Part shown: positions 16,834-37,252 of the stretch, piece by piece
How the letters are laid out: every line of letters begins with the position of its first letter
Numbering within the stretch: the stretch's first letter is position 1
From: Kribbella antiqua
GTDB lineage: Bacteria; Actinomycetota; Actinomycetes; Propionibacteriales; Kribbellaceae
Direction of reading: 5' to 3'
DNA: 64,000 nucleotides
Assembly (NCBI RefSeq): GCF_004345665.1
Contig: NZ_SLWR01000014.1
Coordinates: 124,001-188,000, forward strand
Translations under genes and position numbers: made by a program
Notes under the pieces: generated by a model
The model's input: the letters and a program-made list of their open reading frames with translations, nothing else
Told to the model about the DNA's origin: nothing
The model's database searches: none

Positions 16834-18603
16834 TCATGGCAACAGGTCTGGACCGGGGCAGCCGTACGTCGCGTCGCACGACGGCTTCTGGGTTGCGAAG
16901 TAGGCGGTCAGCCAGGGCTTGGCGCTCTGATTGCCCTGGACCGTCGAGATGTAGGTCTCCGCACGAGAGTCATGCCAGACGCCTGAGTACCAAGCGCCGG
17001 CGCAGCCCCACAAGTCCCCGGCCCTGTAGCTACTGCCCAGTCCCCAACGCCAGCCTTCGTAGCAGCCACGGATCTGCGAGGCCATGTAGTCCAGCGCCAT
17101 CGCGGTGGAGTCTCTGGTGAACGGGAATGTCCCGTTCTGGTTTCCCGCCCAGTTGAAGCCCCAGGATGGGTTCCACCAGGACATGATTCCGACTATGGAG
17201 AAGGTCTTCGGGCACAAGCCGTCGCCGTAATCCTTCTGATAGTCATAGCCGCCGCTGCTCGCGAGCCCGGAGCAGTAGGTCTTGCGGGCGGCGTAGGGCT
17301 CGGAACTGAACCAGTCTCCACAGCCGTACTGATCGGCACACCGGCCGGAGGAGTAGGTCTCGTACTGGAACCATGTCGACTCGGTGTAAGCCTCGGCGCG
17401 CAGGTAGTTGTCCGGCAGCCCCCATTTGCATGCGGCCCATTGAATGATCTCGTCGGTTGTGCCGCTGAATTGACCATCGACCCTCGGCAGCAGCCAGGAG
17501 TCCCAGCGCGGGTCGTATGTGCCCAAACCCGATCTGGGTCGCGAGGCGAACGAATTGTGGACCGCAGCGGCGTCGACCAGGTGGTGATTGCGCTTGTAGT
17601 TGTCCGGCCGCGGTTCCCACGTCGAGCGGTGCACGGCGGCGGCACAGGTACTGCCGCTCGGTAGCGAGCCTACGTTGCCCGGCGAGACAAGAGTCGTGAA
17701 GTAACCGCTCGTCGGTGGCGGCGCAGACGATGTGGTCGGCGAGGTGCTGCTCGTCGGAGTCGGGCTGGGCGACGTCGATGTAGTCGACGATGGCGCCGGC
17801 GACGTCGCAGTGGCTGTCGGGGAGGACGTGGCACTGACCGTCGGTGAAGACGTGGCAGTGGCCGTCGGGGAGGACGTGGCGCTGGCTGTCGGGGAGGACG
17901 TAGCGCTGGCCGTCGGTGAAGACGTGGCACTGGCCGTCGGAGCTGCAGTCGGTGATCCGGAGTCGCTGATCGCGTAGTCATCCGTCGTGAGTGAGCCCGC
18001 CGACTGCAACTCGAAACCGAAGCTGATCGCGGTTGCATCCGCCGGAAGCTCAGGTGTGACGTACTCGGCCTGTGTCCAACTGCTTGCCACCGGCAGCGTC
18101 GAGCCGCTGGTCCAGCGTACCCAGGTTCCCGATGTGTCCCGGTAGGACGCGGTGAGGTGGGCCTGTCCACCGGTGTGATACCACCCGCTGAGCGTGTACT
18201 GGTGTCCGGGGATCACCGCTGGACCGCATCCACTGGAGCCCATCTGGACGAACAATCCGCGCATCCCGGACCGGTAGCCGGTGATGGTCACCTGCTCTGC
18301 CCGGCTACCGCTGTGTGCAGCTGTGGTCCACGTGAAGCTGTACCGGTTCTTTCCGTAACCCTGCGGCTGCCAGCAGTCCGGGACGCGATCATTGTTCGCG
18401 TCGGATTCCAGCGACGGATTCGTCATCGAGATGGTTGTCGCATCGGCGGATCCGATGTTGCCTAGCGATGTCAGCATCACAACCAGCGCCGCCAGCGCGG
18501 TTACGCCCGCGACACCCGAGAGCCAGCGATCGCGGCGGCGGAGATGGCGGAGGCGTGCGACCGGCGAGGGCCGGTCCGTTCGGGTCTGCCGGTGCCGGCT
18601 CAC
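16834..18603 (-). CDS. Secreted modular protein, carbohydrate-binding-like plus transglycosylase-like domain
   Basis: The product is 589 aa. The GTG start at 18603 follows GGTGAGG. A basic N-terminus and one hydrophobic segment (about 30-50) form a signal peptide or anchor. Residues about 58-230 form a beta-rich module with a galactose-binding-like look (NPSLESDANNDRVPDCWQPQ). Next is a Ser/Thr/Pro/Ala linker built from 8-residue repeats. The Cys-rich C-terminal domain (about 330-589) contains 'LRAEAYTESTWFQY', similar to the catalytic-Glu helix of lytic transglycosylases, and 'YDYQKDYGDGLCP'. A role in peptidoglycan turnover fits the c-di-AMP riboswitch upstream, which in actinobacteria typically controls cell-wall hydrolases. 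The enzymatic call is tentative. Confidence 0.7.
   Translation of the reverse strand: MSRHRQTRTDRPSPVARLRHLRRRDRWLSGVAGVTALAALVVMLTSLGNIGSADATTISMTNPSLESDANNDRVPDCWQPQGYGKNRYSFTWTTAAHSGSRAEQVTITGYRSGMRGLFVQMGSSGCGPAVIPGHQYTLSGWYHTGGQAHLTASYRDTSGTWVRWTSGSTLPVASSWTQAEYVTPELPADATAISFGFELQSAGSLTTDDYAISDSGSPTAAPTASATSSPTASATSSPTASATSSPTATATSSPTVSATSSPTATATSPAPSSTTSTSPSPTPTSSTSPTTSSAPPPTSGYFTTLVSPGNVGSLPSGSTCAAAVHRSTWEPRPDNYKRNHHLVDAAAVHNSFASRPRSGLGTYDPRWDSWLLPRVDGQFSGTTDEIIQWAACKWGLPDNYLRAEAYTESTWFQYETYSSGRCADQYGCGDWFSSEPYAARKTYCSGLASSGGYDYQKDYGDGLCPKTFSIVGIMSWWNPSWGFNWAGNQNGTFPFTRDSTAMALDYMASQIRGCYEGWRWGLGSSYRAGDLWGCAGAWYSGVWHDSRAETYISTVQGNQSAKPWLTAYFATQKPSCDATYGCPGPDLLP
17797..17940 (-). repeat. 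24-bp tandem repeats coding the Ser/Thr/Pro linker
   Basis: Five adjacent 24-bp units run from 17821 to 17940, with a diverged sixth at 17797-17820. Each encodes the octapeptide SPTASATS or close variants (SPTATATS, SPTVSATS). The whole number of codons keeps the frame, so copy number can vary freely. The unit is a linker repeat, not a CRISPR. Confidence 0.9.
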
Positions 18604-18765
18604 GACCTCACCCCCCGAACGGACGAGCTCCTCAGCGGGTCGTTGACTGCGCCACGTTTCAGCGTGGCAGGGTGCGAGACGATGCGTTGAACAGGACGAT
18701 TGACGGCCGTACGTGGGCACGCACGAACGCCGTGACGGTATCGGGGCAAGGCAAAACCTCCGCCA

Positions 18766-18944
18766 CGCCTACGGGGTCAGCTGTCGGGTTCGGGCGCGGT
18801 GGTGCCCGGCCTAGCCGTCGATGCGACGCGGCTTCACCCCAAGGCCGTGCAAGGCACGACCGGTGGACCTGGAGGGCCCGGGTGGGTCCCCCGCTCCCGC
18901 CATCTGGATCGCAGGGGGCGCCTGGATCGTGGCGGGACTAGGCG
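18766..18944 (-). promoter_or_regulatory. c-di-AMP riboswitch (ydaO/yuaA class)
   Basis: Read on the minus strand, the leader of the secreted-protein gene contains the diagnostic blocks of this class: 'GTCCCGCCACGATCC', 'GCGGGAGCGGGGGACCCA', 'GGGGTGAAGCCGCG' and the 3' block 'GAACCCGACAGCTGACC' followed by GTAGGCG. The closing P1 stem pairs CGCCTA (18944-18939) with TAGGCG (18771-18766). It lies about 160 nt upstream of the GTG at 18603 and explains most of the 435-bp gap. In this class c-di-AMP binding usually switches expression off. Confidence 0.88.
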
Positions 18945-19038
18945 TACCGACCAGACGCTGGTATTTGAACGGCCGAGGGGGCGTCGGCCCGCCGAACGAT
19001 ACACGATCGTTACCTTGCAGGCTATGCCCGTGTTTGGG

Positions 19039-19695
19039 TCATCTTGCCAACCACTCGCCGGTCTCGACACTGACCAGGTCGTTGCGCACCGCCGCGGTGA
19101 CCGCCTCGAGCTGGGAGTGAACGCCGAGCTTGGTGAGCACGCTTTGGATGTGAGTGCGGGTCGTCGTGGCGCTGACGCCCATGGACCGGGCGCAGACGAT
19201 GGCGCTCTCACCGCGGACCAGGTGGGACAGCACCTCGCGTTCCCGCGGAGTCAGATAGCGCGCCAGCCGCTGCACATCGGAGCGCTCGATGTGTCGACGA
19301 CTCGCATGGCCGTCTCCGGAAGGTTGGTAGATCACCTCGCCCGCGTGCACGCGGGCGATCAGTGTCACCAGATCCTCGATCCGCTGCCGCTTGTCGACGA
19401 ATCCGTCCACGCCGGCCGCCGTGCCGGCGGCCACCACGCCCGGCTGGATCACCGCAGTGAGAAGAACGAGTTTGGCATCCGGTGCGGCTGCCCGCACATT
19501 CAGGAGTACGTCGAGGAAGCTGCCGGACGGGTGGTCAATGTGCAGCAGACACATATCGACCGGTTCGGTCCTCAGTACCGCGAGCGCCCGGTCGGGCGAG
19601 TCGGTCACGGCCACCACTGTGTTTCCGGCCTCCTCGAGAAGCAGCGCGAGTGCTTCGGCCAACACGGCATGGTCGTCGCAGATCAGCAGTCGCAC
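19039..19695 (-). CDS. LuxR-type response regulator with atypical receiver
   Basis: The product is 218 aa: a receiver domain (1-125) followed by a LuxR HTH (LTPREREVLSHLVRGESAIV). The acidic pair Asp7-Asp8, switch Thr80 and Lys102 are present. The phosphoacceptor position reads LLH rather than LLD (His52 in 'MCLLHIDHPSG'), with an Asp two residues later. Normal phosphorylation is therefore doubtful. The GTG start at 19695 was chosen because it begins at the first receiver strand with GAAAGG upstream. No histidine kinase lies in the window. It may control the neighbouring exopolysaccharide or cell-wall genes. Confidence 0.85.
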   Translation of the reverse strand: MRLLICDDHAVLAEALALLLEEAGNTVVAVTDSPDRALAVLRTEPVDMCLLHIDHPSGSFLDVLLNVRAAAPDAKLVLLTAVIQPGVVAAGTAAGVDGFVDKRQRIEDLVTLIARVHAGEVIYQPSGDGHASRRHIERSDVQRLARYLTPREREVLSHLVRGESAIVCARSMGVSATTTRTHIQSVLTKLGVHSQLEAVTAAVRNDLVSVETGEWLAR

Positions 19696-20051: not shown

Positions 20052-20711
20052 TCAACGGCCAGACGGGCGCATACCGGCGCGAAGGGCCGTCGCGGATGCC
20101 TCGAGTGCGGAGTGCAGAGCCAGCTTGGTGAGCAGGCGCCGGATGTGGGTGCGCACAGTGTTCGTGGACACCCCGAGACGCATCGCTGTCTCGGCGCGGC
20201 CGAGACCGTCGACCATGCATTGCAGGACCTCCCGCTCTCGCAGGGAAAGTTCGACGAGCGGGTCGGGTATTCCGTCGGCGTCCCGGCCGGTGACGAGGCG
20301 TCGCAGCACGTCTGCGAGCAGTGCAGGCGGGAACCAGGCCTCACCTCGGGCGACGAGGCTGATGACCCTCACGATCAGGTCGCCATCGGCTGTCTTCGGG
20401 ACCCACGCCAATGCGCCGTGCCGGACGGCGTCCACGACCGGATCGACGCCGGCAGCCGCACTGAGAACCAGCGGTCGTGTAGACGGATGCCACATATGCA
20501 TGTGATCGAGAACGTCGATGCCTGTCGCGTCACCGAGAGCCAGGTCGAGCACGGCGACGTCCGGATGGCCTGTCGCGAGGATGGCGTACGCCTGCCGCGC
20601 GCTCTGTGCGGGGGGCAGCAACTCGAGACCGACCTCCCTGGCCAGCCGGCCGACGAGCGCATCAGTGAACAGCGTGTCGTCGTCCACAATCATGACCCGG
20701 ACATGCGCCAC
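20052..20711 (-). CDS. LuxR-type response regulator
   Basis: The product is 219 aa from the GTG at 20711. The receiver has Asp10-Asp11, phosphoacceptor Asp56 (VLDLALGD), Ser84 and Lys106. The C-terminal HTH reads 'LSLREREVLQCMVDGLGRAE'. It is a canonical NarL/FixJ-type regulator, in contrast to its neighbour at 19039. The start is uncertain: the frame is open further upstream, and a GAGGAAG-like site near 20750 is too far from this GTG. It diverges from the lipoprotein gene at 20957, suggesting local control of the polysaccharide locus. Confidence 0.85.
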   Translation of the reverse strand: MAHVRVMIVDDDTLFTDALVGRLAREVGLELLPPAQSARQAYAILATGHPDVAVLDLALGDATGIDVLDHMHMWHPSTRPLVLSAAAGVDPVVDAVRHGALAWVPKTADGDLIVRVISLVARGEAWFPPALLADVLRRLVTGRDADGIPDPLVELSLREREVLQCMVDGLGRAETAMRLGVSTNTVRTHIRRLLTKLALHSALEASATALRAGMRPSGR

Positions 20712-20956
20712 GTCGCGATTCTTGCTGTCGTCGACGCTCTCCGCTTCCTCTAAATTGATGAGGCCGTGAAATTTGTTCTTTATGAGGGTCTGTTCTCGAA
20801 TGCGTAGTGCGCACGTCCGGTTCCAATTTGGCGTCTCCGCGACCCCTGCCACTACCCGAAAGAATTGCTCCGCGTCGCTATTCCGCGGTGTATCGTGAGC
20901 CCATCGGCGGCGTAGAACGAAAAGCGGCCCGAAGGCCGCCGGGGTCGAGGAGCCTG

Positions 20957-21635: not shown

Positions 21636-23087
21636 TCATCGGTGGCCGCTGTCGGCCGGCGTGACCGGGATCCCGCCGTCTCCCGGTCCGGGTCCGGTCG
21701 CTTCTCCCGGCCTCGACCGCTGGTTGCCCGGGACCCCGATGAAAAGGCCTCTGGGCGGCGTCACCCAGCGGAGCGGCATCCGCTGGTCGGCGATGAGTAC
21801 CGACCCGATCAACCGACCGCCCGCCTGTTCGATCTCCACGCTGGCGGTCCGGACAGCGCTGCGCGACGAGTGGCGAGTGTGAGCGACCAGCAGTGTCATG
21901 TCGGTGAACGCGACAATGGCCGCGGTGTCGGCTGAGGACAGCACCGGTGGCGCGTCGACCAGGACAAGATCCGCGTCGCGGCACAGCGTCGGAAGGATCG
22001 CGCGCATCGTGTCGGCGAGTACGTAGCCCGGAGGCGCTGCCAGTCCAGGAGGAACCGCCTGAAGCCTATCGATTCCAGTGCCGAGCAGCGCCCTGTCGAG
22101 CGGTGCATGCCAGCTCGCGACGTCCACGAGACCGATGCTGTTGTCCACGCTCAAGAGTCGGGCGAGTTCCCTCTGGTGTGAGTCGGCACAGACCAGGATG
22201 ACCCGCTTTCCGGAGAGCGCCAGAGCCGCCGCCAGGTTCGCGGCACAGACAGCTCGGCCGTGGTGTCCGACGGCGCTGGTGAGCACGAGAGTCTGAGCAT
22301 CGCGTGTCGACGCGACGTGTAGAACCTTCGTTCGGAGGTAGCGGAAGGCCTCGGACGTTGCGGACTGCGGAGCCCGCAGGATCGCCAGTGGGGCACTGGG
22401 GCCGGACGGCAGTCTCCAGGTCGAGGGTACGGACGCGAGAGTGGGGGCACGAGTCTGCAGCTCGAGGTCGCGCGCACCGCGGAGCCGGTCGTCGAAACGA
22501 TCGCGGACGACGGCGGTCACGACGCCGAGCACAAGGCCGACCAGAAGGGCGACACCCAGGTTCAGCGGGTAGTTCGGCCCGGACGGCGTGTCCGGCAGGC
22601 TCGCAGGGGTGATCACCGTCGCTTTAGGGCTGCTCTCGTCGGGCTTTGCCTGTCCGGACCGGTACTTGATGTACGCGTTGGCGAACGCACTGGCACGCCA
22701 CCTCGCCTCCTGTGGGTTCGAGGAGGTGTACGCGAACCGGAGCACGTGCGTGTCGACCGGCACCTTGACCGACAGGCCCTGCGTGAGGTCGGCCAGCGGC
22801 GCACGGAGCGCCTTGGCGGCCAGCGCCGCGACGCTTCCCGACGTCGCGATCTCCCGCTCGGTCCCCATGTCGGGCGCCTGCGGCGCGGCGCCTTTCGGAA
22901 CCGCGCGCGGCTCGACGACGACGGTCTCGACGGACGTGTACTCCGGCGGTTGGGTGCGCGTGATCCCGTACGCCGTGCCGACGGCCGCCAGAGTGAACGC
23001 GAGAACGAGGAGCGCATACCTCCGGAGCACGGTCGCGTACGCAGCCGGAGCTCGTCCACCACTCCGCTCCGGTGGCGTGGTACTCAT
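21636..23087 (-). CDS. Wzz/BY-kinase-like chain-length protein with degenerate ATP site
   Basis: The product is 483 aa; the start at ATG 23087 has GGGGAG upstream and overlaps the stop of the preceding gene (ATGA). Residues about 20-45 and 178-200 are transmembrane helices flanking a Wzz-type external domain with a Pro-rich segment before the second helix (DTPSGPNYPLN). The C-terminal half is a CpsD/MinD-like ATPase fold. Its Walker A is 'AVGHHGRAVCAANLA', without the P-loop Lys and Ser/Thr; the A' motif reads VCAD; Walker B 'LVLVDAPPVLSSADT' is kept. The tail has no tyrosine cluster. It probably acts in polysaccharide chain-length control without autokinase activity. Confidence 0.82.
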   Translation of the reverse strand: MSTTPPERSGGRAPAAYATVLRRYALLVLAFTLAAVGTAYGITRTQPPEYTSVETVVVEPRAVPKGAAPQAPDMGTEREIATSGSVAALAAKALRAPLADLTQGLSVKVPVDTHVLRFAYTSSNPQEARWRASAFANAYIKYRSGQAKPDESSPKATVITPASLPDTPSGPNYPLNLGVALLVGLVLGVVTAVVRDRFDDRLRGARDLELQTRAPTLASVPSTWRLPSGPSAPLAILRAPQSATSEAFRYLRTKVLHVASTRDAQTLVLTSAVGHHGRAVCAANLAAALALSGKRVILVCADSHQRELARLLSVDNSIGLVDVASWHAPLDRALLGTGIDRLQAVPPGLAAPPGYVLADTMRAILPTLCRDADLVLVDAPPVLSSADTAAIVAFTDMTLLVAHTRHSSRSAVRTASVEIEQAGGRLIGSVLIADQRMPLRWVTPPRGLFIGVPGNQRSRPGEATGPGPGDGGIPVTPADSGHR

Positions 23088-24592
23088 CCCAGCTCCCCGC
23101 CGCCTCGAGTGCACGCGGATGCCCGCGTCGTCGCCAATGGCAGGGACTCGCCGTCCCCACTCCCTTCGAAGGTCTCACCTCGGTGACAGCGCGTCAACGC
23201 GAGCAGAGCGAAGAGCAGGTCAGCCGATCCCCGGTACGTGACATGCGGATCGAAGATCATCAGCACGGCACAGACCGCGACGGCGACGACAGACACGGCA
23301 CCGGCGATGCTGCCGGCCCCCTGCCCGAACCGTGCTGCCCGCCAGCCTTGGCGCAGGCTCGCGCGGACGAAGAACAGATAGGCGGCGAGCAATGGGATCC
23401 CGCCGCCCCAGAGCAGCCAGATGTATCCGCTCTCGATCCAGACATATCCGGTCGCCTGAATGGCCACCGGAACCCTTGCCCCCGGCCGCACCCCGAGCAG
23501 GAAGTTCCAGTCGGAGAAGAGTTCTGGCAGGAAGTAGCTGCTCAGGTTGCGCAGCCGGCCGATCCAGCTCGCTGGAAGACCATGCACGGACTGGAAGCCG
23601 CTGAGCCGCTCGGCGACCACCGGCCACAGCACGAGGAACCCGGCAATGCCCGCCGGTGCAGACATCAGCGGGATATTCCACGACCGGCCGACGATGGCGA
23701 CCGCGACGACAGCGACCAGCAAACCGAAGAAACTCGAGAACTCTCCGGACGCGAGACAGCCGAAGATGAGCAGGACCGCGGCGGGCGCAAGCAGTGCGCG
23801 CCGACGGCCCTGCATCCAGAAGCAGGCCACGATCGCGAGGTTGAACATCATCAGATCTGCGGCTGCGGCTGGGAGTGCCAATGTCGAGCCACCGCGAGGC
23901 TTGGACAGGGCGCCGACGTACCCGAACGGCGCGTAGTACATCGCTAGCAGGCTACGCACGCCCAGCAGGTCGAGTGCCTGCAGGATGCCGATGACCGCGA
24001 CGACGCCCGCCGTGCAGACCGAGATCCACAAGCAGCGTCTTATCTGCCGATCCGTGGTGACGCTCGCTCGCACGATGGCGTAAACCGCCACGAACTTCCA
24101 CAGCACGAGGGCGTACAGGTAGTCGTCCTGGCTCGGTGTGCGATGCCGCAGGAGCATCCAGAGCAACGGTATGACCGAGTTGGCAACGGACATCAGCAGC
24201 AACGCCCACGCGACGGCCGTCAGCCGGACCCTCAGCTCATGCCCAGTGCGCATCAGGACTATCGCTCGCGTTACCAGGGTGGCGGCAAGGACGAAGTACA
24301 GCGCTTCGTTCGGCCTGAGCACCGGGATCGCGGTGCCACGGTCGATGCCGGCGACCAGCGGGGTGACGCCGACGACGAGGTATGCGGCGAGTGCCGGTCG
24401 GGCCCAGACACAGGCAGCCAGAAGCAGCACGGCCGTGCCACCGAGCGCGATTGCCGGTGATTCGGCCGCCAGCCAGCCGCCTCCGCCCGCGACCACCAGA
24501 CCGCCAAGGACGACAGCACGCGGGGGCAGCCCGTCGTGTCGCCGGGGCAGGGCGGGCCGATCCATCCGACCGCCGAGCTCGGTCATCGCCAT
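23084..24592 (-). CDS. O-antigen ligase/Wzy-like polysaccharide membrane protein
   Basis: The product is 502 aa, with some ten to twelve hydrophobic segments across the first 450 residues and a large loop near residues 330-400 (WIGRLRNLSSYFLPELF) in the position of the O-antigen ligase/polymerase catalytic loop. The start at 24592 has GAGGAG 9 bp upstream; ATG 24586 is an alternative. It lies between the chain-length protein and the flippase in one operon, which fits a Wzy-like polymerase. Family call is from topology and context. Confidence 0.72.
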   Translation of the reverse strand: MAMTELGGRMDRPALPRRHDGLPPRAVVLGGLVVAGGGGWLAAESPAIALGGTAVLLLAACVWARPALAAYLVVGVTPLVAGIDRGTAIPVLRPNEALYFVLAATLVTRAIVLMRTGHELRVRLTAVAWALLLMSVANSVIPLLWMLLRHRTPSQDDYLYALVLWKFVAVYAIVRASVTTDRQIRRCLWISVCTAGVVAVIGILQALDLLGVRSLLAMYYAPFGYVGALSKPRGGSTLALPAAAADLMMFNLAIVACFWMQGRRRALLAPAAVLLIFGCLASGEFSSFFGLLVAVVAVAIVGRSWNIPLMSAPAGIAGFLVLWPVVAERLSGFQSVHGLPASWIGRLRNLSSYFLPELFSDWNFLLGVRPGARVPVAIQATGYVWIESGYIWLLWGGGIPLLAAYLFFVRASLRQGWRAARFGQGAGSIAGAVSVVAVAVCAVLMIFDPHVTYRGSADLLFALLALTRCHRGETFEGSGDGESLPLATTRASACTRGGGELG

Positions 24593-24602
24593 CGGCGGCT
24601 CC

Positions 24603-26228
24603 TCAACCAGAACCGGCCAGCTTGCCGCGGAGTCGGGCGAGACCGCGGATGCCGGACGAAAGCTCCGGCGCGCGCCACATCGCTTGCACCGCAAGGTAGG
24701 TCGCGCCACCCACGACCGCCGCCGCGACCACCGCCAGTCCGGCGGTCGGGATCACCCGGGCAGTGAGCCAGGCGGGGCCCGCCATCAATGCCGCGCCCGC
24801 GCAGATCCGCAGCAACGACGGGACGAGCCGCTCGGTTCCGCGTCGACCCCACCGCTCGGCAGACCGGCTGAGTAGGCCGGCTGCGACCGCGACTGCGGTC
24901 GAGAACGCCAGACCGATCATGAACAGGACCGCCGTACCGCCCACCGACCCCGCCAATCCCAGCAGGGCGAAGCAGGTGACGGCCTGCACCAGCATGGCCA
25001 CCAGCGGGGACCGGGTGTTCTCGCGGGCATAGCACGCGTACGACGAGATCGTGAAGGCGGTCTGACCGATCACGGCGGGCGCGAGAGCAGCGAGGGCGAC
25101 GGCGACCATCGCGGGGCCAGTGGCCGAGTCCATGCGGCCGAAGGAGAGCAACTCCGCGAGGGGCTTGGCCAAGGTGAGGTAGCCGACCGCGGCGGGAATG
25201 GTCAAGAACAGTGCGAACGCGTACCCGCGTAGCAGTGTGTCCCGGTAGAGCATGGCTTGGCCGGCGTTGTACATCCGAGCCAACCGGGGCAGCACCGCGA
25301 GCGCCGTCGGGGTGACTCCGAGTGCTATGGCCAGATAGTAGAAATTGAGTGCGACACCGAATGCGATGACGCCGCCGGGCACCCGGTTCGCAAGCGCGAG
25401 CATCGTCAGTACCTGCATGGCCATCAGAACCGCCTGCCCGAGCGACGAGAGCGCTCTGCGCAGGAGCGCCCGCACCTCGGGGTCGTTCCAACCGCTCCGC
25501 GGCAGCAGTGTGACCCCAGCACGCCTGGCACCCCACCACTGAACGCCGGCATGCAGTACCACCGCCCCGGTGGTGCCGAGGCCGAGCAAGAGCAGCTCGC
25601 CTCGCGGAAGATCGTCCAGGGTCGCGCCGGTGCCGTATGTGACCGCGGCCAGAGCCAGCACGGCGATCATGCCGACATTCTCGAGCGCGGGCGCCGCCGC
25701 CGCGAGGGCGAATCGGCGCCGCGCGTGCATGATCGCGCTCGCCGTGCCGATGACGGCGTAACAGAAGACCTGGGGCATGAACATCACGATCAGCCATCGG
25801 CCCACCCGCTCCTGATCGGCACCCACCTCGCCAGTGCCGCCGGGTGACGCCACGCGCAACAGGAGCGGCGCCAGCCAGATCACAAGCGGCGTCGCGACCG
25901 CGAGTCCGAGCACCGTGAGGCCGAAGAAACCGCCGGCGACCCGCTCCGACGCCGCGCGGTCGTCGGCATCGATGTGCCTGACGAGCGCCGGGACGAGCAG
26001 CGAGGTGAACAGGGAGCCCGCAAGCAGTCCGTAGTACACGAGGTTGGGCAGGGCGTTGGTGAACTGGAACGTGTTGCCGAGGAAGGTTGGCCCAAGTACG
26101 GCGCCGATCGCCATGATCTTGACGACGCCGGTGACCCGGCTCAGTACGGTCCATGCGGCGACCGTGATCGAATCGCCGACTGCGTCGGCGGCCGAACTAT
26201 GCTCCCGGACGCCGGCCACCGTCGTCAC
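24603..26228 (-). CDS. MurJ/MviN-type lipid-linked oligosaccharide flippase
   Basis: The product is 541 aa with about fourteen predicted membrane helices. N-terminal features match MurJ: 'VLSRVTGVVKIMAIGAVLG', 'FLGNTFQFTNALPNLVYYGL', 'GSLFTSLLVPALV'. Classical MurJ flips lipid II. In actinobacterial exopolysaccharide loci, MurJ-like proteins often occupy the Wzx place, which is the more likely role here. The GTG start (26228) overlaps the sugar-transferase stop. Confidence 0.85.
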   Translation of the reverse strand: MTTVAGVREHSSAADAVGDSITVAAWTVLSRVTGVVKIMAIGAVLGPTFLGNTFQFTNALPNLVYYGLLAGSLFTSLLVPALVRHIDADDRAASERVAGGFFGLTVLGLAVATPLVIWLAPLLLRVASPGGTGEVGADQERVGRWLIVMFMPQVFCYAVIGTASAIMHARRRFALAAAAPALENVGMIAVLALAAVTYGTGATLDDLPRGELLLLGLGTTGAVVLHAGVQWWGARRAGVTLLPRSGWNDPEVRALLRRALSSLGQAVLMAMQVLTMLALANRVPGGVIAFGVALNFYYLAIALGVTPTALAVLPRLARMYNAGQAMLYRDTLLRGYAFALFLTIPAAVGYLTLAKPLAELLSFGRMDSATGPAMVAVALAALAPAVIGQTAFTISSYACYARENTRSPLVAMLVQAVTCFALLGLAGSVGGTAVLFMIGLAFSTAVAVAAGLLSRSAERWGRRGTERLVPSLLRICAGAALMAGPAWLTARVIPTAGLAVVAAAVVGGATYLAVQAMWRAPELSSGIRGLARLRGKLAGSG

Positions 26229-26896
26229 AGGCCGTTTCTCGCCAGGACGGCTGGCACGGTTCGGAGCAGGATCAGCAGGTCGAACATCAAACTCTGCCGT
26301 TCGACGTACTCCAGATCGAGCTCGAGCGTCTGGCGCATGGTGAGCCGGTTGCGGCCGCTGGTCTGTGCAAGCCCGGTCAGGCCCGGTACGGCGAGAAAGC
26401 GGTCACGGCACGGCGGACCACAGAGGTCGGCCTCCCACGGCAGCATCGGGCGCGGCCCGACGAGGGACATCTCACCCCTCAGCACGTTAACTAGCTGGGG
26501 CAGCTCGTCAAGGCTGGTCCGGCGTAGGAACCGGCCGACCCGGGTGATCCGCGGGTCGGCTTCCAGCTTGTAGAGGCCGGACTCGCCACCGACCTCTGGG
26601 TTGTCCGACAGCAGCCGCTGCATGTAGTGCCGATGGATGTCGTCCGGACAGTGGTCATACATGGTCCGGAACTTGTACATCAGGAACGGCCGGTGGTCGC
26701 GCCCTAGGCGAATTTGCCGGAACAGCGCCGGGCCCGGTGTGGTCGCCCGGACGATCGTGGCGATCACCAGCATCGCCGGTCCCGCAAGCGTGAGGCACGC
26801 GACGGCCACAACCAGGTCGAGAACCCGCTTCGCGACCCTGCGACCCACGACCGGGCGGGTCCGGACGCGCGCGCTCGGCCGGGCGATGCCCGTCAT
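26225..26896 (-). CDS. Priming sugar transferase (polyprenyl-phosphate glycosyl-1-phosphate transferase)
   Basis: The product is 223 aa. One N-terminal membrane segment (KRVLDLVVAVACLTLAGPAML) is followed by the catalytic domain with 'GPALFRQIRLGRDHRPFLMY', 'KFRTM', 'RRTSLDELPQL', 'SLVGPRP' and 'PGLTGLAQTSGR'. The length matches the single-helix WbaP/PglC-like class rather than the five-helix class. It starts repeat-unit synthesis by moving a sugar phosphate to undecaprenyl phosphate. Its start overlaps the acetyltransferase stop (ATGA). Confidence 0.92.
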   Translation of the reverse strand: MTGIARPSARVRTRPVVGRRVAKRVLDLVVAVACLTLAGPAMLVIATIVRATTPGPALFRQIRLGRDHRPFLMYKFRTMYDHCPDDIHRHYMQRLLSDNPEVGGESGLYKLEADPRITRVGRFLRRTSLDELPQLVNVLRGEMSLVGPRPMLPWEADLCGPPCRDRFLAVPGLTGLAQTSGRNRLTMRQTLELDLEYVERQSLMFDLLILLRTVPAVLARNGL

Positions 26897-27582
26897 GGCG
26901 ATTCCCGCTCGGTTCGCACCGATCCGGCCGCCCTGCGGTGTGCCATTCGGAGCCGGTGCCCGTCGCCAGGCACAGCCTCGACGCGCCGGCTGATCTCGAC
27001 GAGGTCCTCGATCCGGCCGTGCACCATGGCGGGGTTGCCGTAGGCAACGCAGCCGTCCGGCACATCCCTGGTGACGACGGCTCCGGCGCCGACCAGCGCC
27101 TCCGCCCCGATCCGGACGTAGGGCAGCAACGTCACGTTGACACCGATCCGGGCACCGGGTCCGATCGACGGTCCGGACATCAGCCGGGCGGACGCCGGAT
27201 CACCGGGATAGAGGTCGTTGGCCACGGTGACGCCTGGCGCGAGGAATGCGCCGGCGCTGATCTCCGTGAACTGAGCTAGGTAACAGTTGGCATGGATCTT
27301 CACTCCGTCCCCGATGCGGCAGCCGTAGTCGACGACCGAGTTGCTCCAAACGCACACGTCATCACCGATGACGCATTCCTCGCGGATGACGACGTTGTGC
27401 CCGGTCTCGAAGCGAGCTCCGATGTGTGAGCCCCCGTAGATGACCGTGCCGCTGCGCAGGTGGGCGCCTGGCGCCAGCACCAGCCGCTCGGTACTGTCCT
27501 TGATAGGCCGGCCGGGCTGGTATCCGACGATGACGCCTGCATCGGCATGGAGCGGCTCGATCAACGGCGCGTCACTGGCCAT
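26893..27582 (-). CDS. Hexapeptide-repeat sugar N-acetyltransferase (WlbB/WbpD-like)
   Basis: The product is 229 aa; the start at ATG 27582 has AGGAGAGCC just upstream and lies 11 bp inside the aminotransferase gene. The central part is a left-handed beta-helix of hexapeptide repeats (VIREECVIGDDVCVWSNSVV and following), then 'GVTVANDLYPG' and 'VVTRDVPDGCVAYGNPA'. This pattern is typical of acyltransferases acting on 3-amino nucleotide sugars. With the neighbouring aminotransferase and oxidoreductase it resembles the WlbA-C/WbpB-E-D route to 2,3-diacetamido uronic acids. Confidence 0.87.
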   Translation of the reverse strand: MASDAPLIEPLHADAGVIVGYQPGRPIKDSTERLVLAPGAHLRSGTVIYGGSHIGARFETGHNVVIREECVIGDDVCVWSNSVVDYGCRIGDGVKIHANCYLAQFTEISAGAFLAPGVTVANDLYPGDPASARLMSGPSIGPGARIGVNVTLLPYVRIGAEALVGAGAVVTRDVPDGCVAYGNPAMVHGRIEDLVEISRRVEAVPGDGHRLRMAHRRAAGSVRTERESP

Positions 27583-28765
27583 AGGCGGCTCTCCTGGATT
27601 TCCGATTCCTATGCACAGCCGGCCGTCGGACAAGCTCCAGATCCGCTGACGACCGACCACCTGGGACGAGTTCGCACAGCGCAGCGGAGACGCGGGCGAC
27701 CTGGCGTGTCTGCAGCTGTGGAAACAGCGGCAGAGACAGCACTTCGTTGGCGGCCTGCTCGACGACAGGCAGCGGTGCGGTGGCGAAATGCTCGTACGGC
27801 GGCTGCCGGTGGCAAGGGATCGGATAGTGGATTCCGGTCCTGATCCCAAGCTCGTCGAGGCAGGCACGTACTGCATCTCGTCGTGGAACCCGGGCGACCG
27901 CGAGGTGGTAGACGTGGCCGGCCTCTTCTCTGGCCCCCACCAGACGCACCCCGGAGTCCGCCAGCTGCCGCTGGTACTCCGCGACCAGTGCGCGGCGCGA
28001 CTCTGTCCACCTGTCGAGGTGCGGAAGCTTCGCCGAAAGGACCGCGGCCTGCAGGGCGTCGAGTCGGCTGTTCGTGCCGACCTCGACATGCTGGTGGTGA
28101 GACCAGCTCGCCCTGCCGTGATCACGCAAGCACTCGAGCCGCCGCGTGAGTTCGGAGTCATTGGTCACCACCGCGCCGGCGTCGCCGAAGGCGCCGAGAT
28201 TCTTGGCGGGATAGAAGCTGAAACACCCGGCGCTGCCGAACGATCCCGCTCGGCCATCACGCCAGGTCGCACCATGCGCCTGGGCGGCGTCCTCGACGAC
28301 GGCGATGCCCGCCCGGTTCGCCACCTTGCCGAGTGCGTCCATGTCCGCCATCTGCCCGTAGAGCTGAACGACGATGACCGCCGCCGTCCGGCCCGTGATC
28401 GCCGCCTCGAGGTCGTCCGCGCCGATCAGCAACGTCTCCGGGCTGACGTCGGCGAAGCGCGGGACGGCGCCGGCCAGCACGACAGCCTCCACGGTTGCCA
28501 CGAACGTGTTCGCCGGCACGACGACATCGTCACCGTGGCCGATGCCCAGCGCCTGCAGCGTCAGTCGCAGCGCATCGGTGCCGTTGGCAACGCTGACGGA
28601 GTGCTTCGTGTGGCAGTATGCGGCCCACTCCTGCTCGAAGCGCTCGACGGCGGCGCCGCCGATGAACTCGTTCCGGTCCAGGAGGCCGGACCAGGCCGCC
28701 TCAACGTCGTCACGGACCTCGCCGGTCATTGCCCCTAGGTCGGTGAAGGGGATGACGTCGGTCAT
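27572..28765 (-). CDS. DegT/DnrJ/EryC1/StrS sugar aminotransferase
   Basis: The product is 397 aa, PLP-dependent. Conserved features are 'NGTDALRLTLQALGIG', 'VVEDAAQAHGA' and 'SFYPAKNLGAFGDAGAVVT' with the PLP-binding Lys. The family aminates keto nucleotide sugars. Its neighbours, a Gfo/Idh/MocA oxidoreductase (would supply a 3-keto sugar) and a hexapeptide acetyltransferase (would acetylate the amine), give a coherent three-step pathway. The start overlaps the oxidoreductase stop (ATGA). Confidence 0.92.
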   Translation of the reverse strand: MTDVIPFTDLGAMTGEVRDDVEAAWSGLLDRNEFIGGAAVERFEQEWAAYCHTKHSVSVANGTDALRLTLQALGIGHGDDVVVPANTFVATVEAVVLAGAVPRFADVSPETLLIGADDLEAAITGRTAAVIVVQLYGQMADMDALGKVANRAGIAVVEDAAQAHGATWRDGRAGSFGSAGCFSFYPAKNLGAFGDAGAVVTNDSELTRRLECLRDHGRASWSHHQHVEVGTNSRLDALQAAVLSAKLPHLDRWTESRRALVAEYQRQLADSGVRLVGAREEAGHVYHLAVARVPRRDAVRACLDELGIRTGIHYPIPCHRQPPYEHFATAPLPVVEQAANEVLSLPLFPQLQTRQVARVSAALCELVPGGRSSADLELVRRPAVHRNRKSRRAAYGQ

Positions 28766-29892
28766 CGCGGCACGGGCTCGAGCGTCGGCTCGCGGTCCGG
28801 CTGGCCGGCATTGCCGTGCTTAGTGCCGGAGGTGTCCTTCACCTTGCCGTTGCGGATCTCATCGACGCTGACGGGACGCCCGAGGAGCAGCGACAGCTGT
28901 GCGCACTCGAGCACCTCGACGACGGCAAGGCCGTTCGTCCCGTCCGTGAGTGGACGCTCACCCTTGAGGATGCACTCGACGAAGTGGCCGTCCTCGACCG
29001 CGAGTGGCTCGTCGGACGCCAGGAACGGCGACACGATGTCGCCGTAGCGATACGACATCGGTGGCAGTGTGAGGCTCTCGTCACCCGAACTGCCGTATTC
29101 GGCCGGGAACAGAACGCCCTTGTCATGAATCCGGATTCGTTCCTCCGACGCCAGGTCGTCGTACACCGCCATCTTCCGACTGCCGACCGCGGTGACCCGG
29201 CGGACCTTGCACGGATCAAGCCAGCTGACGTGGATGTTCGACGACATGGTGGAGTCGGCGTAGATCAGCCGCAGGTAGGCCACGTCCTCGAACCGCGCGT
29301 CGACGTGCCTCCAGCCCCAGGCCTGCACGGCCACGGGAGTCCGACCGAGAACGTTGTTGATGATCGAGACGTCGTGCGGCGCGAGATCGAAGATCACGTT
29401 CACGTCGCCTTGGTACAAGCCGAGGTTGAGCCGCTGTGTGTTGATGTAGTAGACGTCGCCCAACACGCCGGTCTGAATCAGCTCCCGCAGCTTCCAGACT
29501 GCCGGGCTGTATTCGAAGGTGTGGCCGACCATCAGCGTCACCCCTGCCGCATCGGCCGTGGCGATGAGGTGGCGCGCGTCGGCGGACCTGGTGGTCAGCG
29601 GTTTCTCCACGAGAACGTGTTTGCCGGCCTCGAGCGCGAGCGTCGCCAGTGGTGCGTGCGTGGTCGGCGGAGTGGCGAGGATGACCGCGTCGACATGGGT
29701 CAGCGCCTGCTCCAGCGTGGTGAAACAGGCGCTTGCCGGGAAAGTGTGTCCTACGCTGTGCAGCCGGCCCTCGCGACCGTCGACCAGGACGACCCGGTCC
29801 ACTGCATCGATCGAGTGCAACACTCGAACATGTTTGGACCCCCAGTAGCCGCAGCCGACCACTCCGACCCGCAGGCCGGCGCCCAGTCCCAT
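28762..29892 (-). CDS. Gfo/Idh/MocA oxidoreductase (WlbA/WbpB-like)
   Basis: The product is 376 aa from ATG 29892 (a GTG one codon earlier is possible). The Rossmann motif is 'VGVVGCGYWGSKHVRV'; 'EKPLT' and 'VGHTFEYSP' are conserved for the family; 'DLAPHDVSIIN' carries the catalytic His region. The family oxidises sugars with NAD(P). As first gene of the leftward operon it probably makes the 3-keto nucleotide sugar used by the aminotransferase. The UDP-sugar 6-dehydrogenase needed to make a uronic acid precursor is not in the window. Confidence 0.9.
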   Translation of the reverse strand: MGLGAGLRVGVVGCGYWGSKHVRVLHSIDAVDRVVLVDGREGRLHSVGHTFPASACFTTLEQALTHVDAVILATPPTTHAPLATLALEAGKHVLVEKPLTTRSADARHLIATADAAGVTLMVGHTFEYSPAVWKLRELIQTGVLGDVYYINTQRLNLGLYQGDVNVIFDLAPHDVSIINNVLGRTPVAVQAWGWRHVDARFEDVAYLRLIYADSTMSSNIHVSWLDPCKVRRVTAVGSRKMAVYDDLASEERIRIHDKGVLFPAEYGSSGDESLTLPPMSYRYGDIVSPFLASDEPLAVEDGHFVECILKGERPLTDGTNGLAVVEVLECAQLSLLLGRPVSVDEIRNGKVKDTSGTKHGNAGQPDREPTLEPVPR

Positions 29893-30098
29893 CACAGACC
29901 CCCTGCCTCGATTCCCCCGCCCCCAAGCCGCGTGAGCGACCGCTTGTCCGGCTCGTCAGGCCTGGACTCGCTTCTTTACCGTCTGTTACGGAGGTCGGCA
30001 TCCGGCACCCGCATATGGACGACACTGTGTACGCCGAATACCGGATTTCCGGCCCGTCTCCCACCAAATACGCTCGGCTGCAGTGGAGGGGGTTCACG

Positions 30099-31748
30099 GT
30101 GCGTCGATCAAAGGTGTCGGCACCTGTCGGCCGGGCTGCTCGGGTATCACTCGAGCACAGAGGCAACTCGTTGCTGCGCGCTTTCCTGGGGACGATCCTC
30201 GTTGCTCTCGCGCTCCAGGCGTGGCCTCAGGCGGCGCCCGAGGCGGACGCGGCCGACCCCGCGACCGTCGTCTCGCTGACGTTCAACGACGCGCACGTGA
30301 GCGCATACACCTATGCGCGCCCGATCCTGCAAGCTCACGCCATGAACGCCACGTTCTACTTGGCCAGCGGCTGGATCGACAAGTCGTTCGCGTGCTGCAT
30401 GCCGTGGTGGCAGGTGGACGACCTGTACCGCGACGGCAACGAGATCGGTGGAATGGGTACCGATCACAAGGATCTGACCCAGACGTACTTCACCGACTGG
30501 ACCCAGGACTACGCCTACAAGCGGCAACAGGTCTGTGGCGACTGGCAACGGCTCTCCGACAGTGGCTATGACCCGCAGACCTTCGCCTACCCGGCGGGGG
30601 CGTATCGCTATACCTACCCCGACGCGAGCACGGCTCAGAGCATTGTGAAGAGCTGTGGTTATCGATCCGCGCGGGCTGCAGGCGGGCTGTCCCCCACCGG
30701 CCCGGTCTATAGCGAGACGCTTCCGCCCAAAGACGCTTACGCCGTACGGACGCCGAACAACTCGTCGACGGCACCTCTGCAGCTGTCGACGCTGCAGAGC
30801 TGGGTAACGGGTGCCGCAACCCATGGCGGTGGCTGGGTGCCGCTGGTGTTCAACCAGGTCTGCCACAACGGCGCCTCGACCTATTCGTCGTGCATGTCGT
30901 CGTCGAAACCGATTGACGACAGCGTGTTCGGCGCGCTGCTCGACTGGCTCGCGAACGCCGGCCAGCCCGGTGGTGCGCCCGCGGGCACGACCGTCCAAAC
31001 CGTCCGCCAGGCGATAGGCGCGCCTGCGCAGCCGACACTGCCGCCGCGGCCGACGGTCGTCTCACTGACCTTCGACGACGGCGACGCCAGCCAGTACGAG
31101 ACGCTGCCGATGCTGACGGCTCACGGCATGCGCGGCACCTTCTATATCTCGTCGAGCAACAAGACCATCACGTGGCCGCAGGTCAGCGACCTCTACGCCG
31201 CCGGAAACGAGATCGGCGGTCACACCGCGAACCATGTCGACCTGACCAGCTCCAACCTCACGAACGACCAGAAGGTCCGCGAGGTGTGCGACGACCGGCA
31301 AACGTTGATCCAGCGTGGCTACAACCCGGTCAGCTTCGCCTATCCGTTCGGCTCCTACGACCAGAACGCGCAGAACATAGTGCAGTCGTGCGGGTACCAG
31401 TCCGGTCGGCGGGCCGGTGGTGCGACTCAGACCGGACCGACCTACTCCGAGACGATCCCGCCCGCCAACGCGTACACGATCCGGACGGCGTATCGGGCCG
31501 CTACCAACGAGCTGCAGCTCGCGGACCTGACGGCGCCCGTCACCGCTGCCGCAAGTCACGGGGGCGGCTGGGTGGTCCTGGTCTTCCACGAGATCTGCGT
31601 CCAGGGCCAGAGCAACTTCAACTCCTGCATGGCGTCTTACAAGCCGGTTCGGAACACCACCTTCAATGTATTCCTTGACTGGCTCCGCGACAGCCCACCG
31701 CCGGACACAAGTGTGCGGACGGTCGGTCAGGTGATGAACGTTGCATGA
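30099..31748 (+). CDS. Secreted tandem polysaccharide deacetylase (NodB) protein
   Basis: The product is 549 aa; the GTG start follows a GGAGGGGG site (30084-30092). After a signal segment (SLLRAFLGTILVALALQAW) come two NodB domains. In domain 2 (about 320-549) motif 1 is TFDDGD and motif 2 HTANH, giving the Asp and His-His metal ligands. In domain 1 (about 58-305) these read TFNDAH and MGTDH, lacking the metal-binding Asp and first His, so it is probably non-catalytic. Each domain has conserved Cys pairs. The enzyme likely deacetylates the exopolysaccharide (or peptidoglycan) outside the cell. It diverges from the oxidoreductase operon. Confidence 0.88.
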   Translation: MRRSKVSAPVGRAARVSLEHRGNSLLRAFLGTILVALALQAWPQAAPEADAADPATVVSLTFNDAHVSAYTYARPILQAHAMNATFYLASGWIDKSFACCMPWWQVDDLYRDGNEIGGMGTDHKDLTQTYFTDWTQDYAYKRQQVCGDWQRLSDSGYDPQTFAYPAGAYRYTYPDASTAQSIVKSCGYRSARAAGGLSPTGPVYSETLPPKDAYAVRTPNNSSTAPLQLSTLQSWVTGAATHGGGWVPLVFNQVCHNGASTYSSCMSSSKPIDDSVFGALLDWLANAGQPGGAPAGTTVQTVRQAIGAPAQPTLPPRPTVVSLTFDDGDASQYETLPMLTAHGMRGTFYISSSNKTITWPQVSDLYAAGNEIGGHTANHVDLTSSNLTNDQKVREVCDDRQTLIQRGYNPVSFAYPFGSYDQNAQNIVQSCGYQSGRRAGGATQTGPTYSETIPPANAYTIRTAYRAATNELQLADLTAPVTAAASHGGGWVVLVFHEICVQGQSNFNSCMASYKPVRNTTFNVFLDWLRDSPPPDTSVRTVGQVMNVA

Positions 31749-31769
31749 GCTGCCAAGCGGAGGGTCCTT

Positions 31770-32438
31770 ATGACCATGAGCTACCCGACGCAACTACTGA
31801 GGCCGAGCGCCATCACTGAGCGGGCGCTCGGTGTTTGCAGGCTGTACGTCGTACGGCACGGCACGACCACCATGAACGTCGAAAACCGCTATCGCGGACG
31901 ACGTGACATCCCACTGGACGCACAGGGGTATCAGGACGCGGTCGACGCCGCCCGCTTGCTGTCGAAGGTCGGCCTGACCGCCGTCTACACCGGGCCGCTG
32001 CGGCGCACGATTGCCACTGCGCAGATCATCGCGGACGAGGCACGGGTGCCGGACCTGCGCATCCTGCACGGGCTCAACAACGTCGACTACGGGGCCTGGG
32101 AGGGCATGACCGCCGACGAGGCGATGATGTACGACCCGGTGGCATTCGGCCTGTACCGGACCTCGCCCAGCCGCGCGGCCTGTCCGCTCGGCGAACGGCT
32201 GAGCGACGCCCAGGACCGCATGATCGGTGCCCTGCAGCTGATCGGCTCCCGGCACCTCGGCGAGACAGTCGCCGCGGTCACGCACGCGGTCATGATCCGC
32301 CTCGCCGTCGCCCGTCTCAATGGCGTGGACGCGGAGTCCTGGCGGATCCCTGTCGGGCGCGGATCGTTGTGCGGCTTCGAGATCGACGCCGCCGGAACCC
32401 GGCTGACGGACCTGCCTGCCGGCAGCGACGTCGACTGA
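31770..32438 (+). CDS. Histidine phosphatase (phosphoglycerate-mutase-like) family protein
   Basis: The product is 222 aa with GGAGGG upstream. The catalytic 'YVVRHGTTTMN' motif, 'YTGPLRRTIATAQII', 'YGAWEGMTADEA' and the second His in 'VTHAVMIRL' are all present, so the enzyme should be active. Members dephosphorylate sugars, cofactors or phospho-nucleotides. Its place between deacetylase and glycosyltransferase, and near a sulfotransferase, would suit either a sugar-phosphate or a PAP-type by-product as substrate (speculation). Confidence 0.87.
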   Translation: MTMSYPTQLLRPSAITERALGVCRLYVVRHGTTTMNVENRYRGRRDIPLDAQGYQDAVDAARLLSKVGLTAVYTGPLRRTIATAQIIADEARVPDLRILHGLNNVDYGAWEGMTADEAMMYDPVAFGLYRTSPSRAACPLGERLSDAQDRMIGALQLIGSRHLGETVAAVTHAVMIRLAVARLNGVDAESWRIPVGRGSLCGFEIDAAGTRLTDLPAGSDVD

Positions 32439-32439
32439 C

Positions 32440-33654
32440 ATGGGCCACCTGCACCGCCGGAACGGCTCAGCGCCGTACGACGCCGTACCCCGCATCCTCT
32501 TTCTCGTCGAAAACGTGGCCCTCGCGCGTGACCACCGGCTGCGGAAGCAGGCGGAAGCCCTCGTGGCGGAGGGATTCGCAGTCTCGGTGATCTGTCGCCG
32601 CGACCCCGGCAACCACGGGCTGGCGGGCGTGCGGCTGTACGAGTACGCCGCGCCGGCAGACGCCGCCTCGAAGCTCGGCTTCGTCCGTGAGTACGGCTAC
32701 TCGTGGTTGATGGCGGCCGGACTGACCCTGCGAGTGTTGCTCACGGAGGGCTTCGACGCCGTCCAGGCATGCGGCAATCCCGACATCTACTTCACGATCG
32801 GAGCGCCGCTCAAGCTGTTGGGCAAGCCATTGGTGTTCGACCAGCGTGACCTCGCGCCTGAGCTCTACGCGGCCAGGTACGGGCGGGACGGCGGAGCTGT
32901 TCACCGCACGCTGCGCTGGTTGGAACGGGTCAGCTACCGCAGCGCGGACCACGTGATCACGGTCAACGACTCGCTGCGCGACGTCGCATACCGGCGTGGG
33001 GAACTGCCACCTGGCACGGTCACCGTGGTCGGGAACGGTCCCGCACTGGCCCGCACAGGCCGGCGGCAGCCTCGCCCGGAGCTGAGACACGGCCGCCGGC
33101 ATCTCGTCTGCTGGCTCGGTCTGATGGGGCCGCAGGATCGCGTCGACCATGCGCTGCGTGCCATTCACGAACTTGTCCACGGGGCCGGCAGGAACGACAC
33201 GCACTTCGCGTTCGTAGGCGAGGGTGAGGCTCGCGAACCGAGCGAGATGCTCGCGGCCGAGCTGGGGCTTCGCGACTGGGTGAGCTTCCCCGGCTGGGTG
33301 GACGAGGAGGAGGCATTCACCTACCTGTGCACCGCGGACGTCGGCCTCGAGCCGAACCTGGAGGAGATCGTCTCGCCGGTGAAGGGGATGGAGTACATGG
33401 CCTTCGCGCTTCCTTTCGTGGCCTTCGACCTGAAAGAGACGAGAGCACTCGCAGGACCCGCCGCCTGTTACGCGCGCCCGGGGGATGACGCGGAGTTCGC
33501 ACGGCTTATCGCTGAGCTGCTCGACAATCCAGAACGCCGCGCGGCGATGGGCCAGGCCGGCCGGCTCCGAGTGGAGCAAGCGATCGCGTGGGACCACCAG
33601 CAGCCGGCGTACGTCGACGTGTACCGGCGGCTGCTCGACCGGGAAGTGGTGTAG
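32440..33654 (+). CDS. Glycosyltransferase family 4 protein
   Basis: The product is 404 aa with a GT-B fold. The N-terminal acceptor domain starts 'PRILFLVENVALARDHRLRK'. The C-terminal domain has 'FAFVGEGEAREPSEML', 'VSFPGWVDEEEAFTYL' and the donor-site segment 'VGLEPNLEEIVSPVKGMEYM'. It probably adds one sugar of the repeat unit. It begins one base after the phosphatase stop and abuts the sulfotransferase gene. Confidence 0.9.
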   Translation: MGHLHRRNGSAPYDAVPRILFLVENVALARDHRLRKQAEALVAEGFAVSVICRRDPGNHGLAGVRLYEYAAPADAASKLGFVREYGYSWLMAAGLTLRVLLTEGFDAVQACGNPDIYFTIGAPLKLLGKPLVFDQRDLAPELYAARYGRDGGAVHRTLRWLERVSYRSADHVITVNDSLRDVAYRRGELPPGTVTVVGNGPALARTGRRQPRPELRHGRRHLVCWLGLMGPQDRVDHALRAIHELVHGAGRNDTHFAFVGEGEAREPSEMLAAELGLRDWVSFPGWVDEEEAFTYLCTADVGLEPNLEEIVSPVKGMEYMAFALPFVAFDLKETRALAGPAACYARPGDDAEFARLIAELLDNPERRAAMGQAGRLRVEQAIAWDHQQPAYVDVYRRLLDREVV

Positions 33655-37047: not shown

Positions 37048-37252
37048 TTCGACATCAACCTGGATGGCATGTCGCCACGCGGCCAGTGTGCATGAAGGAT
37101 GACGCCCGGGCCAGCGCGGAGGCGCACGTACGTCATTTTGAGGATCCCCGACGGCGAAGCATCCATGACGATGGGTGGGGCGTGGGTGGTGGTCCGGCCG
37201 CATGCGGTCGGGCGCGTGGCCGGGACGATGCGTTGAGGCCAGGGGAGGATGT

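Follow-up and report, generated by a model that had tools for sequence, protein, structure and literature searches.

In the 64,000-nt stretch of Kribbella antiqua DNA analysed here (the window), a c-di-AMP riboswitch of the ydaO class probably lowers the expression of a secreted-looking modular enzyme with a lysozyme-type fold that would act on a glycan of the wall or the matrix. The riboswitch is a genuine and ordinary member of its class, and in one other lineage it is conserved jointly with the gene. The encoded protein consists of an N-terminal stretch, a module resembling carbohydrate-binding modules, a repeat linker and a C-terminal domain, in this order, and its gene is the last one of an exopolysaccharide cluster (Table 1).

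Table 1. Features of the riboswitch, the gene behind it and the neighbouring cluster, in coordinates of the window
Feature	Position	Strand	Basis
Coding sequence, 589 aa and stop, GTG start; secreted-looking modular enzyme	16834..18603	-	Open frame; start agrees with L008
C-terminal domain, lysozyme-superfamily-like fold, without Pfam/NCBIfam name	16837..17703	-	Model, profiles, alignment
Codon of E108 of the C-terminal domain, candidate catalytic acid	17380..17382	-	Invariant in 31/31, end of helix 98-108; catalysis putative
Ser/Thr/Pro linker repeat, 24-bp unit, 5.8 copies	17801..17940	-	Repeat analysis
CBM_4_9-like module	17943..18438	-	Pfam E 0.019, below cut-off
Arg-rich, then hydrophobic N-terminal stretch, signal-peptide-like	18439..18603	-	Read from translation
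Leader, aptamer to start codon; possible anti-SD 18752-18743, SD 18616-18606	18604..18764	-	Folding, terminator search
c-di-AMP (ydaO class) aptamer, P1 5' strand to P1 3' strand	18765..18945	-	RF00379 at 18930-18753; outer P1/P2 arms via 54 other aptamers
P2, UCCCGCCA (18937-18930) with UGGCGGGA (18902-18895)	18895..18937	-	8 pairs, 27-nt loop
P1 5' strand ACGCC	18941..18945	-	Partner GGCGU at 18769-18765
Response regulator (Response_reg and GerE), upstream	19042..19695	-	Pfam
Second response regulator (Response_reg and GerE)	20055..20852	-	Pfam
Exopolysaccharide cluster	21636..37353	.	Pfam
Cluster members: MurJ flippase, DegT, Gfo/Idh, polysaccharide deacetylase, GT4, ATP sulfurylase, APS kinase			Pfam match
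Cluster member, Wzz-like			Pfam match below cut-off
Cluster members, polymerase-like and sulfotransferase-like			Named from reading, no Pfam match

The aptamer and its conservation

A reading of the sequence only, made earlier, had placed a ydaO-class riboswitch on the minus strand at 18766-18944, about 160 nt before the GTG at 18603. A covariance-model search, set beforehand as the check, confirmed the class, with RF00379 (c-di-AMP, ydaO class) scoring 44.9 bits at 18930-18753 of the minus strand, above the gathering cut-off of 38 bits (E 3.3e-7 in the 64-kb window). RF00379 is the sole Rfam match at gathering score in the window, and the second-ranked family in 18400-19300 has E 0.04. The Rfam alignment begins at 18930 and assigns P1 to an inner CGCC, with 2 of the 25 pairs of the window aptamer being non-standard in this register. 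The 5' boundary of the sequence-only reading, correct to within one base, is better than that of Rfam, as the 5' arms of both P1 and P2 fall outside the Rfam match: the closing P1 is formed by 18945-18941 and 18769-18765, its 3' end lies at the proposed distance from the GTG, and the P2 hairpin with its 27-nt loop is situated between the inner and the outer P1.

These outer helices were compared in 55 aptamers, 54 from the genus (including the one of the window) and one from locus L008, which encodes the closest relative of the window protein. The 5' motif of the outer P1 is present in all 55. P2 of at least five pairs was found in 53 of them, this count being biased toward pairing, since the script discards non-standard pairs and the aptamers are related to one another (L121 was scored one pair out of register); in the two misses, L008 and L120, an extra C and a mismatch, respectively, are seen by eye. 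Pairs 1, 2 and 4 of P2 are C-G in some aptamers and U-A in others, thus both sides vary in step.

Directly after the P1 5' strand, at 18940, the window aptamer has U, while the other 54 have G, and this substitution may change the affinity. The window aptamer shares with the RF00379 ydaO/yuaA leaders the sequence blocks, the helices and the place ahead of a gene for an envelope-type enzyme, but differs from them in the long P2 loop, which is usual in the genus, in U18940 and in its low score, the lowest among the 54 aptamers of the genus.

L008 comes from a metagenome-assembled genome labelled Pseudonocardiales, and its C-terminal domain is 82% identical to that of the window protein. RF00379 is found upstream of this gene as well, with 42.6 bits. 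The two aptamers are identical in 79% of positions (131 of 165 columns, 18930-18766), and in 63% of the 30 columns before 18930, where the P1 and P2 5' arms lie, whereas the identity is 42% in the upstream flank, 45% in the remaining leader and 41% at the start of the coding sequence. At the level of sequence comparison, 79% in the aptamer against 41-45% in the flanks speaks for selection on the aptamer. Against this, in the Rfam register 19 pairs are unchanged, two are changed on one side, four are broken and none is changed on both sides. In a tree of 18 aptamers, with a long-branch warning elsewhere in the tree, the window and L008 aptamers group together at 99/99, apart from the NlpC aptamer of the window's own genome. 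The CBM_4_9-like modules of the two proteins are 57% identical, and the gene neighbours of the two loci differ; therefore, aptamer, module and domain have been kept together while the neighbours differ.

The C-terminal domain occurs in 5 of the 38 genus genomes. Ahead of the four other Kribbella copies (L004-L007), no c-di-AMP aptamer was found in the 1.5-kb flanks, either at the gathering cut-off or with E up to 5, and among the 45 domain-bearing genomes searched, the riboswitch stands ahead of the domain only in that of L008. Of the 49 loci covered, 19, including L017, were analysed with cmscan; the other 30 rest on a genome-wide RF00379 search with stricter filters in the 45 genomes (all except the one of L017), which yielded either no match in the genome or a match not fitting the locus. 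All 38 genus genomes have at least one c-di-AMP aptamer. The genome of the window contains two, together with one gene with a diadenylate-cyclase (DAC) domain (E 9.2e-26), whose presence suggests that the host is able to make c-di-AMP.

The modular protein and its C-terminal domain

The start codon agrees with that of the L008 gene (VSRHRQ and MSHQRR, compared by eye). Two elements of the architecture proposed earlier, a linker of 8-residue repeats and a Cys-rich domain with a Glu-bearing helix, were recovered by the repeat analysis and the structural model, respectively. The third, a binding-like module, stood in part: a match to CBM_4_9 (PF02018) is present, but with 15.7 bits against the required 25.9 it is below the threshold of this family. 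The module was found in one of the 38 genus genomes, the window's own, and its single-sequence structure model (pLDDT 36.7) is too poor for use.

The C-terminal domain comprises 289 aa and has no Pfam or NCBIfam match; the window protein falls outside the SLT/GH23 profiles and has no credible sequence relatives in the PDB. The AlphaFold model of the domain (mean pLDDT 83.9, pTM 0.87) was compared with known structures by Foldseek, where the best E was 0.57 and nothing was under 0.001. The top rows are nevertheless muramidases, lytic transglycosylases, a GH124 cellulase and a goose-type lysozyme, with unrelated chains lower in the list. Realignment by VIA-align, which re-examined the Foldseek list, places MltF first (Z 8.8, 4.3 A, 129 aligned), followed by an EtgA fusion (Z 8.6) and goose-type lysozymes (Z up to 8.0, 4.2 A over 137), with MltC, MltE, Slt, Tse3, a chitinase (Z 6.9) and the GH124 cellulase (Z 6.2) further down; Z is at least 8 for 5 of the 234 chains. 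Judging by their titles and known folds, we take the 50 rows listed to be lysozyme-superfamily enzymes, endolysins or T7 core proteins.

The family was studied using 49 loci of the domain, found by a pattern scan of genome contigs. The alignment includes 31 sequences, that of the window and those of 30 loci (L033 was excluded, its range containing a stop codon; the others were not chosen). At E up to 1, Pfam matches of these members are SLT in 8 of 31 (best 1.2e-5), Glucosaminidase in 6 (best 3.5e-4) and SLT_3 in one. Single matches to ChW and to FATC were disregarded as coincidental. E108 is invariant in all 31 sequences, as are, among other positions, D130 and Y251. In SLT/GH23 enzymes, the catalytic Glu is part of an ES motif and is followed by a G-L-x-Q motif. 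The former is represented by E108-S109, Ser following in nearly all members, while the latter is seen as GLxQ in distant members and is replaced by GIMSW in the window protein and the close group.

A Z score near 8 does not settle the matter on its own and could reflect a common arrangement. The assignment of the modelled domain to the lysozyme superfamily is credible because one superfamily fills the list, a helix-terminal Glu is conserved and relatives have SLT matches; support for a lysozyme-like fold is moderate. Thus the term transglycosylase-like, applied earlier, appears justified at the level of the modelled fold and of weak profile matches in relatives, with the window protein itself having no match to a named family. 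What the domain has in common with SLT (PF01464)/GH23 proteins and goose-type lysozymes is the modelled fold, the Glu at the helix end and the weak matches in 8 of 31 relatives; it differs from them in having no match of its own, in being Cys-rich and in GIMSW at the place of GLxQ.

A phage or plasmid origin was considered and rejected, no match being found in plasmids or phages. Separately, three distant matches (30-33%) were observed in viral contigs.

Exopolysaccharide clusters and the riboswitch targets of the genus

Neighbourhoods of the domain were compared using 14 proteins of the window stretch as tblastn queries (E<=1e-8). Among the close loci, where the domain is at least 50% identical, 17 of 18 have at least one homologue of the biosynthetic genes of the window cluster. 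The exception is L008, with none in its 10.7 kb, and the matches at L016 are weak (76 and 79 bits). Such homologues were found at 4 of 31 distant loci and at 1 of 36 background loci, the latter being riboswitch neighbourhoods that are shorter (mean 7.6 versus 13.8 kb), partly overlapping and in one case the L008 stretch again. When 111 frames in the neighbourhood of the domain at 17 close loci were scanned with Pfam, MurJ was identified in 8 and group 1 glycosyl transferases in 10; the frames were chosen by a GC-position rule, with three very long frames and all L008 neighbours left out. Because of these 17 of 18 loci and the neighbour scan, the domain, by sequence similarity, usually belongs to an exopolysaccharide cluster in the close group, a context that the sequence-only reading had not noted, and peptidoglycan is therefore not the sole candidate substrate.

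Close members of the domain occur in actinobacterial and in Chloroflexi-labelled genomes. Within 21636-29895 of the window, DegT and Gfo/Idh score higher against L011 and L028 (Pseudonocardiales bins) than against L020, L021 and L023 of the Kribbella group, and MurJ scores higher against L011 than against the same three loci, which is a hint of horizontal acquisition. In Nocardioides-labelled genomes, frames of about 2,100 aa with similarity to the polysaccharide deacetylase of the window lie beside the domain gene (L010:1660-7851, L013:1550-7948, L017:1340-7807, all on the minus strand).

The targets of the 54 genus aptamers were classified by tblastn to exemplars, with Pfam run on one exemplar per target kind and on both GAF-like proteins. 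A gene of the NlpC/P60 type follows 38 aptamers, L107-like proteins follow 7, L108-like proteins 5 and GAF-like proteins 2; one aptamer precedes the window gene, and one has none of these kinds behind it. The L107 exemplar (L107:8072-9832, minus strand) combines CBM96 with a domain lacking a Pfam match, which we take to be GH26-like, and the L108 exemplar (L108:10012-11592, plus strand) combines CBM96 with GH16. Both have a Thr/Pro linker, and 12 of the 54 aptamers are ahead of similar proteins. Hence the c-di-AMP regulon of the genus seems to extend beyond peptidoglycan peptidases. The CBM96 proteins have in common with the window protein the switch, a binding module, a Thr/Pro linker and a domain resembling glycan enzymes, while the binding modules and the catalytic domains differ.

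Other arrangements were observed in this inventory. Aptamers of the GH16 and NlpC types share a strand in G013:C75, G017:C1 and G037:C1, separated by about 19-22 kb. The aptamer-preceded GAF-like proteins (L089:1693-2709, plus strand; L117:2080-2988, minus strand), an unusual target, are related (34% identity), and a sub-threshold GAF_2 match fits one of them. In the genome of L036, two c-di-AMP aptamers on opposite strands form a back-to-back pair with 254 bases between them (G062:C25:67574-68099).

Control of the gene and the substrate of the enzyme

A Streptomyces SLT-domain hydrolase reportedly has a c-di-AMP switch. Literature searches for a SwlA riboswitch in Streptomyces and for ydaO together with Kribbella found no report, and in a search for a c-di-AMP riboswitch with glycoside hydrolase or Kribbella the riboswitch was absent among the matches listed.

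The control of wall hydrolases by this class in actinobacteria, stated in the sequence-only reading, is in print, as far as the available portions of the sources go: the rpfA switch of Streptomyces coelicolor acts as an OFF control via premature termination (PMC10117811), the nlpC switch of Corynebacterium glutamicum as an OFF control that is probably translational (PMC9960051), and in S. venezuelae low c-di-AMP is proposed to raise six wall hydrolases (PMC11481543). By analogy with these studies, expression of the window gene should fall when c-di-AMP is high. The rpfA and nlpC systems resemble the window in that a ydaO-class switch of an actinobacterium precedes the gene for an enzyme that cleaves the wall; they differ in the enzymes, Rpf and NlpC/P60 there and an unnamed lysozyme-fold family here, with a CBM-like module and a gene that closes an exopolysaccharide cluster (PMC10117811, PMC9960051).

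Near the leader, neither a consensus terminator nor, in a search covering the sigma-70 type, a promoter was found. When the Rfam pairs are enforced, with P1 off register, the possible anti-SD pairs with the SD at 0.84-0.87. Still, a translational switch by SD occlusion is retained as a conjecture, since most of the SD is paired in the model with the aptamer enforced as well as in the free state. The leader folds no better than shuffled sequences (z 0.12), and in the L008 leader no such anti-SD is seen by eye at that place.

In the preferred explanation, high c-di-AMP would act via the switch in the 5' leader, presumably by ligand binding, and less enzyme would be made. The enzyme, probably exported, would be held to a glycan by the CBM-like module via the flexible linker, and the lysozyme-fold domain would cut a glycan of the wall or the matrix, E108 being the likely acid. 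A drop in c-di-AMP, for example after an osmotic change, would then allow synthesis of the enzyme and loosening of the envelope or the matrix.

This explanation presupposes a working aptamer. That the aptamer has decayed or serves another ligand, the gene thus escaping c-di-AMP control, is very improbable: its bottom rank among the genus aptamers, the U18940 unique among 55 and the two non-standard Rfam pairs might be taken as decay, but the contrast between the aptamer and its flanks in the comparison with L008 and the intact 8-bp P2 argue against it. Somewhat less remote, yet still improbable, is a C-terminal domain that has the fold without the catalysis and functions in binding or scaffolding, as the GIMSW of the close group could suggest; the invariance of E108, D130 and Y251 is contrary to this.

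For the substrate of the enzyme, two versions were considered. The chances are about even that the enzyme is a peptidoglycan cleaver under c-di-AMP control, which would open the wall to allow growth or the export of polysaccharide. The top fold matches, which are lytic transglycosylases and goose-type lysozyme, the SLT and Glucosaminidase matches of relatives and the rpfA and nlpC precedents (PMC10117811, PMC9960051) are consistent with this, though the attached module weakly resembles CBM_4_9 rather than a named peptidoglycan-binding module. The enzyme could also be dedicated to the exopolysaccharide that the neighbouring cluster makes, as its depolymerase or lyase, so that c-di-AMP would tune the secreted matrix, a possibility we regard as rather unlikely. 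It agrees with the frequencies of cluster genes at close, distant and background loci, with the presence in the fold list of lysozyme-fold enzymes of other glycans (the chitinase and the GH124 cellulase), and with the 12 genus switches before proteins similar to the two CBM96 exemplars, one of which contains GH16. However, the sole other riboswitch-linked copy, in L008, is the very locus with no cluster gene, such genes are likewise missing from 27 of 31 distant loci, the background loci are shorter and partly overlapping, and the targets of actinobacterial c-di-AMP switches described in the available portions of PMC9960051, PMC10117811 and PMC11481543 are cell-wall related.

Riboswitch control of actinobacterial wall enzymes is already known; what is new here is the enzyme family and its setting. 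A further-reaching idea, tentative and in our estimate unlikely, is that c-di-AMP controls the remodelling of a secreted, perhaps sulfated polysaccharide, with a new family of lysozyme-fold hydrolases or lyases cutting the product of its own cluster; the CBM96 enzymes behind other switches of the genus point the same way. As the family is unnamed in Pfam and NCBIfam and its close members reside in exopolysaccharide clusters, a link from c-di-AMP to the matrix would be directly testable.
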